From Lampris incognitus (taxonomy: Eukaryota > Chordata > Actinopteri > Lampriformes > Lampridae): DNA of 64,000 nt. The position numbers were made by a program, and so were the translations under genes. Positions 1,745 to 2,161 of the stretch are shown in pieces (the stretch's first letter is position 1; the number at the start of each line of letters is the position of its first letter). The notes under the pieces are model-generated. The model worked only from the letters and a program-made list of their open reading frames with translations. It was not told where the DNA came from and did not search any database. The DNA is taken from NCBI RefSeq assembly GCF_029633865.1, contig NC_079223.1:4035521-4099520 (forward strand). Direction: 5' to 3'.

Positions 1745-2161
1745 TGTAACGACCATGGATAAATAGACTCGCTAGCCCTTTCGCTAGCCCATGGCTAACG
1801 GGTCGGACCCTTGAGTTGACTGGTTAACGTAGTCGTCCATGTTGCGGAAGACCCGGGTTTGCGTCCCGGCTGTAGCAGTTCCCGGCTTCCCCCCGAATTC
1901 ACTACATTGGTGTCAGAAGTGGGATGGTGAGACCATGAGGCCATCGGAAGCATGTGCCCCCAGAGGTGTGAGGGAGATGGTATGCTGAAGCATGGGGGAC
2001 GTGCTTCCTGAAGGAGGGGGGTCGTGTAACGACCACGGATAAATAGACTTGCTAGCCCTTAGCTAACGGGTCAGACCCTTTAGTCAACTGGTTAACGTAA
2101 TCGCCTGTGGTGCGGGAGACCCAGGTTCGCGCTGCGGCGGTTCCCAGCTGCCCTCGCTACA
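1745..2161 (+). mobile_element. TRIM element (miniature LTR retrotransposon) with tRNA-like block in LTR
   Basis: LTRs at 1745-1906 and 2025-2161 start TGTAACG and end CTACA. Between them is a 118-bp internal region starting with the primer binding site TGGTGTCAGAAGTGGGAT at 1908, complementary to the 3' end of tRNA-Leu(CAA) as I remember it. It ends with the polypurine tract GAAGGAGGGGGG. Flanking ATAT at 1741-1744 and 2162-2165 (AATAT if the terminal A is shared) is a target duplication. The right LTR keeps a perfect pol III A box, TAGTCAACTGG; its B box is decayed. The left LTR has a 10-12 bp local duplication (TCGCTAGCCC). No ORF. It lies 84 bp from hmgcll1 exon 7, antisense to that gene. 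Confidence 0.85.

Follow-up and report, generated by a model that had tools for sequence, protein, structure and literature searches.

The 417-bp element at positions 1745-2161 of the window (the whole 64-kb stretch of Lampris DNA analyzed here) is a miniature LTR retrotransposon (TRIM) with two TG..CA LTRs. We read it, with a probability of roughly 0.85, as an old, decayed TRIM of the Helenus type with a cycle that would combine RNA polymerase III (pol III) transcription, tRNA-Leu priming and a helper acting in trans. The sequence basis of this reading consists of the LTRs, the primer site, the polypurine tract, 4-bp target duplications, the promoter boxes, the size of the family, and some primer sites that run on into tRNA-Leu. 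In its anatomy the element appears to fit a pol III promoter within the LTR alongside LTR-type reverse transcription. In importance we rank the captured primers above the abundance of the family; they constitute physical evidence, within one genome, of which isoacceptor primed the element, and seem to bear traces of tRNA base modification.

Anatomy and neighborhood of the window element

The features of the element are collected in Table 1. A single T lies between the end of the 5' LTR and the primer site, and the alignment of the two LTRs contains several indels. Every point of the TRIM anatomy given in the earlier note (TG..CA LTRs, primer site, polypurine tract and ATAT duplication) is present in the sequence. 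The proposed absence of coding capacity also holds, as the four ORFs of at least 30 aa that overlap the element have 52, 49, 46 and 44 aa. The claim that the LTR holds an A and a B box stands in part: both positions are found 43 bp apart, but each LTR of this copy has mismatches in at least one box, and to judge from its boxes the window copy has probably lost its promoter function.

Table 1. Positions of the element, its second window copy and one variant capture (window coordinates unless a contig is given)
Feature	Positions	Strand	Remark
5' target duplication ATAT	1741-1744	.	4/4 bases match
5' LTR TGTAACG..CACTACA, 162 bp	1745-1906	+	ends common to sister copies
5' LTR A-box position GAGTTGACTGG	1813-1823	+	one mismatch to TRGYNNANNGG
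5' LTR B-box position GGTTTGCGTCC	1856-1866	+	one mismatch to GGTTCGNNTCC
Internal region, without coding capacity	1907-2024	+	ORF listing
Primer binding site TGGTGTCAGAAGTGGGAT	1908-1925	+	complement of the last 18 bases of mature tRNA-Leu
Polypurine tract GAAGGAGGGGGG	2010-2021	+	sequence read
3' LTR TGTAACG..GCTACA, 137 bp	2025-2161	+	LTR self-alignment
3' LTR A box TAGTCAACTGG	2081-2091	+	exact
3' LTR B-box position GGTTCGCGCTG	2124-2134	+	three mismatches, 43 bp beyond A box
3' target duplication ATAT	2162-2165	.	pairs with the 5' ATAT copy
Second window copy, tandem LTR-internal-LTR-internal-LTR	44531-45215	-	A and B boxes exact in each of the three LTRs
ATAC duplications flanking the second window copy	45216-45219 and 44527-44530		
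L092 capture	G000:C1:52066026-52066826		variant LTR end; tRNA match to 29

A minus-strand exon at 2249-2434 encodes 62 residues that match residues 161-222 of the 298 of HMG-CoA lyase (3mp4, 2cw6). Because the element lies 3' of this exon in the direction of the gene, it is probably located in an intron and antisense to the gene. A second likely HMG-CoA lyase exon was recognized by eye only at about 3700-3855 on the minus strand.

The 64-kb window is unusually rich in minisatellites, with tandem-repeat arrays at 13753-15779 (22 bp), 19320-21670 (40 bp), 48048-49389 (21 bp), 53460-58231 (27 bp) and 60209-62388 (9 bp). An interspersed repeat of about 430 bp that looks like a SINE occurs, among other places, at 3990-4430, 27054-27484, 42993-43413, 39882-39462, 6429-6025 and 26722-26304; its near full-length copies are 81-84% identical, and shorter fragments are also present. 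An Rfam SNORA76 match at 40485-40605 on the minus strand scores 47 bits, above the gathering score, and is probably false because short tandem repeats overlap there.

The internal region of the element folds better than its shuffles (z of -2.2 and -3.4 in two copies). A candidate hairpin upstream of the polypurine tract, with GAAGC..GCTTC arms and the loop GGGA (e.g. L045:1499-1617), was rejected, its arm pairing being not above that of shuffles (596 of 5,000 by Watson-Crick pairs, 434 with G-U pairs; 16 of 62 sequences without readable arms were excluded).

Abundance and common marks of the family

The genome of the window (1.48 Gb, 537 contigs) was searched with several queries. The element gave 7,953 first-look candidates, of which 40 were scored, with at least 54 matches; the internal region gave 2,129, of which 40 were scored. 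An exact 27-base pattern across the junction of LTR end and primer site occurs 2,233 times (0 for the reversed control), a lower bound because the window copy itself differs in this pattern. The Helenus kind is abundant in the Lampris genome, with thousands of copies.

Two samples were drawn. After removal of two overlapping loci and addition of the second window copy, the first comprised 29 loci with 61 full LTRs. The second consisted of 20 junctions from the 27-base list, chosen irrespective of their likeness to the window copy, and held 25 full LTRs. The 61 LTRs are about 150 bp long, start with TGTAAC and end with GCTACA, with some exceptions, and the common marks of the family are the termini TGTAAC..GCYACA, the tRNA-Leu primer site and a GGAGGGGGGTAG tract. 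The unit length is 399-427 bp in 34 units. A primer site with at most three mismatches follows 53 LTR ends (exact in 30), and for 48 of 86 LTR starts, outer 5' LTRs included, GGGGT is found no more than 25 bases upstream.

tRNA-type boxes in the LTRs

Of the 61 LTRs, 59 carry an exact A box (TRGYNNANNGG) and 35 an exact B box (GGTTCGNNTCC). Both boxes occur in range in 34 of 61 LTRs, compared with 0 of 3,050 simulated sequences (50 sets). A second A-like motif, about 21 bp upstream of the canonical A box, is behind some of the A matches; the canonical A box, counted with its trailing GGTTA, is found in 48 of 61 LTRs. The 25 LTRs of the second sample agree (A in 24, B in 17, canonical A in 20, canonical A with B in 13), so the boxes are kept in other family members. 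The canonical A-to-B spacing in the family is 43 bp from start to start, which is typical of ordinary tRNA genes.

Within this genome the boxes are conserved only slightly above the remaining LTR: mean identity is 0.949 for A and 0.927 for B versus 0.903 elsewhere, and among 139 windows of 11 columns the two rank 14 and 44, respectively. The LTR block that the earlier note described as tRNA-like does not score as a tRNA in the covariance-model check, RF00005 being absent among the matches listed for the window element, 19 of 30 loci and one LTR. At default settings ARAGORN called none of the 61 LTRs a tRNA; a functional tRNA in the LTR was rejected, as 58 calls appeared only at the 70% threshold and the printed ones had inconsistent anticodons. 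The closest host tRNA to the block is Thr(TGT), with 50 of 62 positions in the best pair, in a comparison that covered 17 host genes for the five isotypes Thr, Cys, Lys, Ala and Arg; the available part of PMC10886601 aligns fish Helenus to tRNA-Val. No 5S rRNA was found among the matches listed for the window element, the sampled loci and the LTR.

Proposed transcription and replication cycle

We infer, rather than read from the sequence, the use of pol III, the binding of TFIIIC, the ends of the transcript and the helper. Pol III would start from the tRNA-like boxes (A and B) of the 5' LTR, and its transcript would traverse the internal region and the 3' LTR; we propose such read-through because the LTR carries no T-run terminator. 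Of the 34 units 31 lack TTTT, as do 23 of the 25 LTRs in the second sample. T-run depletion was rejected as a pol III signature: AAAA is equally rare (in 4 of 34 units, versus 3 of 34 for TTTT), and therefore the scarcity of TTTT is no sign of selection or of strand-specific depletion. The first T run in the flank lies a median 87 bp beyond the 3' LTR (29 loci), and a transcript ending there would still offer the first strand transfer a long repeated end.

Minus-strand synthesis would begin at the 18-base site from mature tRNA-Leu, with CAG as the most likely isoacceptor, and the polypurine tract would prime the plus strand, which would usually stop at m1A58, once 18 tRNA bases have been copied. 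An LTR retrotransposon that makes 4-bp duplications, presumably a Gypsy element, following the available text of PMC10886601, would supply the enzymes in trans.

Transcription of the LTR by pol II, with the tRNA-like block as an inert relic of a SINE inserted into an ancestral LTR, is an alternative that we regard as possible but rather unlikely. A pol II promoter may exist, because a ATAAATAG motif stands upstream of the boxes in some LTRs (20 of 61), and the alternative gains from both the modest conservation of the boxes relative to their surroundings in this genome and the failure to find a tRNA fold in the block. It does not readily explain why both boxes, at their 43-bp spacing, persist in 34 of 61 LTRs while the remainder of the tRNA has become unrecognizable, and it is at odds with the conservation of the box region across Helenus families reported in the part of PMC10886601 available to us. 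Pol III transcription from the LTR boxes is our preferred reading. The Cassandra-like logic suggested by the earlier note, pol III-type boxes within the LTR of a TRIM, is supported, as are the TRIM structure and the sharing of the boxes by family members.

Primer tRNA and putatively captured tRNA-Leu sequences

The 18-base match of the primer site to tRNA-Leu(CAA), another claim of the earlier note, was confirmed as a match, but the choice of isoacceptor was not: two host genes, Leu(CAA) with an intron (L156) and Leu(CAG) (L157), both identified by Rfam and ARAGORN, fit the site equally, and longer copies point to CAG. In the genome, 39 places carry the tRNA-Leu 3' end GGTTCGAATCCCACTTCTGACA. 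L157 differs from L156 and from a further locus, L125, at three T-arm bases and may be an imperfect tRNA gene; L125 passes Rfam and resembles Leu(CAG) by eye, while ARAGORN calls no tRNA there at default and Ser(AGA) at a relaxed threshold.

A pattern of LTR end, primer site and at least seven further bases of the tRNA-Leu complement is found at 11 places (L145-L155), and L092, with its variant LTR end, makes a twelfth. In eight copies the primer site continues at least 22 bases into tRNA-Leu. The tRNA match ends at 46 or 48 in L145 (by local alignment or end rule), 48 in L146 (51 by a looser rule), 40 in L147, 48-49 in L148, 65-67 in L149, 48 in L150, 26 in L151, 59 in L152, 47 in L155, and 28 or 33 in the near-identical L153 and L154. 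The exact ends are uncertain by a few bases because L146, L147, L148, L150 and L155 share bases with the piece to which they are joined. Eight of the 12 captures (L145, L146 and L150-L155) are joined to an inverted Helenus LTR and three (L147, by way of the polypurine tract, L148 and L149) to a direct one; in L092 no Helenus LTR piece follows. Over the 13 bases of positions 36-48 seven captures fit CAG, with 8-12 matches, but not CAA, with 1-4; L147 favors neither, and the shorter captures do not discriminate. By these matches Leu(CAG) rather than Leu(CAA) is most likely the primer.

Eight captures reach complement position 36, where the G expected from L157 and L125 never occurs: seven have A and one has T. 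The other cells of the captures hold 15 mismatches in 195, and the corresponding Fisher value of 8e-9 applies only if the captures are independent and uses ends set by hand. Position 36 pairs with a variable-loop C, e2 in the numbering used here. According to the available portion of PMC11417395, zebrafish Leu-CAG carries m3C at e2 as well as m1A58, and m1G37 is found in many zebrafish tRNA clusters, Leu-CAG not being named for it in that portion. All six tRNA-Leu places with letters shown, among 13 in total, have C at the e2 base. Position 48 immediately precedes tRNA position 37, and four captures (L145, L146, L148 and L150) have their end there or only a few bases away. In HIV-1, as described in the accessible text of PMC13191261, reverse transcription stops at m1A58 with minor stops at position 37, and extends beyond A58 when the methylase is mutated. 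At position 19, where m1A58 misreading would fall, three junctions have a base other than T and 11 have T, numbers too small to be set against ordinary mutation.

We lean toward reading the captures as independent fossils of events in which the plus strand passed m1A58 into Leu(CAG), misread m3C, in four cases stopped before position 37, and jumped to another Helenus template. That the tRNA-Leu extensions go back to a single master copy, or arose when an element recombined with a tRNA-Leu gene, is a less probable account of the same junctions, though one with several points on its side. Only 12 loci are available; at least 25 tRNA bases are common to the 11 found by pattern as a matter of search design; and the extra match is short in L151 (26 bases) and in L153 and L154 (28). 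The A at position 36 in seven of eight would also be expected from common descent, some junctions fall within short homologies to the joined piece, and the letters of the e2 base are known for six of the 13 tRNA-Leu-like places. Such an origin accords poorly, however, with the differing tract ends (40, 47, four near 48, 59 and 65-67) and the differing sequences that follow them. The 5' part of the tRNA gene is missing from the stretches read, and one capture, L148, has T instead of A at position 36; the T version of the e2 base occurs at two places only, this capture and an unread site 134 bp away from where the L155 junction begins. Should the over-extension reading be true, copy-rich LTR elements could serve as genomic records of the primer tRNA and its modification state, also in organisms that lack biochemical work. 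No report of captured primers of this kind was found in the literature searched, which was mostly without subscription papers.

LTR-type integration, age and the search for a partner

For the analysis of target duplications, 12 loci were added to the first sample, giving 41, of which 29 were usable and 12 were dropped with a truncated or mutated outer end. Exact 4-bp duplications flank nine of 29 loci, a count reached in 0 of 5,000 shuffles; the identity of the 4-bp flanks is 69%, compared with 43% in shuffles, and there is no excess at 3, 5 or 6 bp. In the second sample two of four usable elements have exact duplications (reached in 246 of 3,000 shuffles); with only four usable elements, this sample alone is no proof of the 4-bp rule. 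Three-LTR arrays are found in five of 29 loci, and longer arrays are among the dropped loci (L017 and L030). The LTR ends are conserved across copies and accompanied by 4-bp duplications, and a SINE dimer merely resembling an LTR element, which would account for a tRNA-type promoter motif in each repeat, is contradicted by the common TG..CA ends, the primer site, the tract and the fixed duplications and is extremely improbable.

The sampled copies are mostly old. LTR pairs within a copy differ by a mean Kimura divergence of 0.139, or 0.078 outside CpG columns (32 pairs), and LTRs from different loci by 0.173, or 0.107 outside CpG columns; in the second sample the six pairs measured are 83-90% identical.

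At 1,082 places in the genome the 18-base primer site continues with A, C or T in place of the Helenus base. Among at least 100 such places listed, 14 were read: four are Helenus, five belong to one family, two to another, and three are others. The tRNA-Leu primer site was also noted in several other LTR-like families (e.g. L083, L085, L089 and L091). The family of L085, L086, L088, L094 and L096 combines this site with copies that are 93-99% alike. Twelve more places share the L089 junction, and one of the two read is seemingly a short deleted element; gag and RT matches further downstream of an L089-type copy were assigned to a neighbor. In L091 a weak zinc-knuckle match, below the cut-off, lies far downstream. 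Among 30 Gypsy-type loci, one has the primer site with at most three mismatches and itself reads as a Helenus copy. No autonomous partner with the same primer site was found among the places read and these 30 loci, and neither a search of viral contigs with one 23-base pattern nor a search of phages with the element gave any relatives.

Comparison with known systems

The earlier note knew of no vertebrate TRIM with a tRNA-type promoter; such elements had already been described as Helenus (Kojima 2024, PMC10886601), a description cited in a 2026 meeting report (PMC12859917, available in part). The available part of PMC10886601 places Helenus (TRIMp3) in zebrafish, other ostariophysan fishes, sterlet, paddlefish and coelacanth, with relatives of LTR-11_DR in Cypriniformes, Siluriformes and Gonorynchiformes, and counts 5,575 LTRs and 2,618 internal portions of LTR-11_DR in zebrafish. 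The same text gives 4-bp duplications in animals, tandem arrays, a length below 1 kb for most families, and primer sites for tRNA-His, -Leu or -Lys in vertebrates. The window element is below 1 kb and non-coding, and has two LTRs, a primer site and tract, the boxes, 4-bp duplications and a tRNA-Leu site; since it agrees on each testable point, we consider it a further Helenus member. Against LTR-11_DR as described there, the Lampris family is alike in size, LTR A and B boxes, tRNA-Leu site, 4-bp duplications, thousands of copies, tandem arrays and lack of a functional tRNA. No tested feature departs from Helenus, the likeness to LTR-11_DR being judged by description and not by sequence identity, and no closer system was found in the literature searched. 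The present data add LTRs mostly without a T-run terminator, and primer sites that run into tRNA-Leu(CAG).

Cassandra of plants, in the available text of PMC7215508, shares the pol III-type promoter in the LTR, the absence of coding sequence and the tandem LTR-internal arrays. Its promoters and terminators derive from 5S rRNA, whereas the Lampris family has boxes of the tRNA type and lacks TTTT in 31 of 34 units; Cassandra proper was rejected as an assignment, with no 5S among the matches listed.

The putative over-extension resembles that of HIV-1, as given in the available part of PMC13191261, in the copying of the tRNA primer beyond 18 bases and in the minor stops at position 37. In contrast to HIV-1, the putative products in Lampris are integrated in the genome, are joined to other pieces of the element, and belong to a non-autonomous element.
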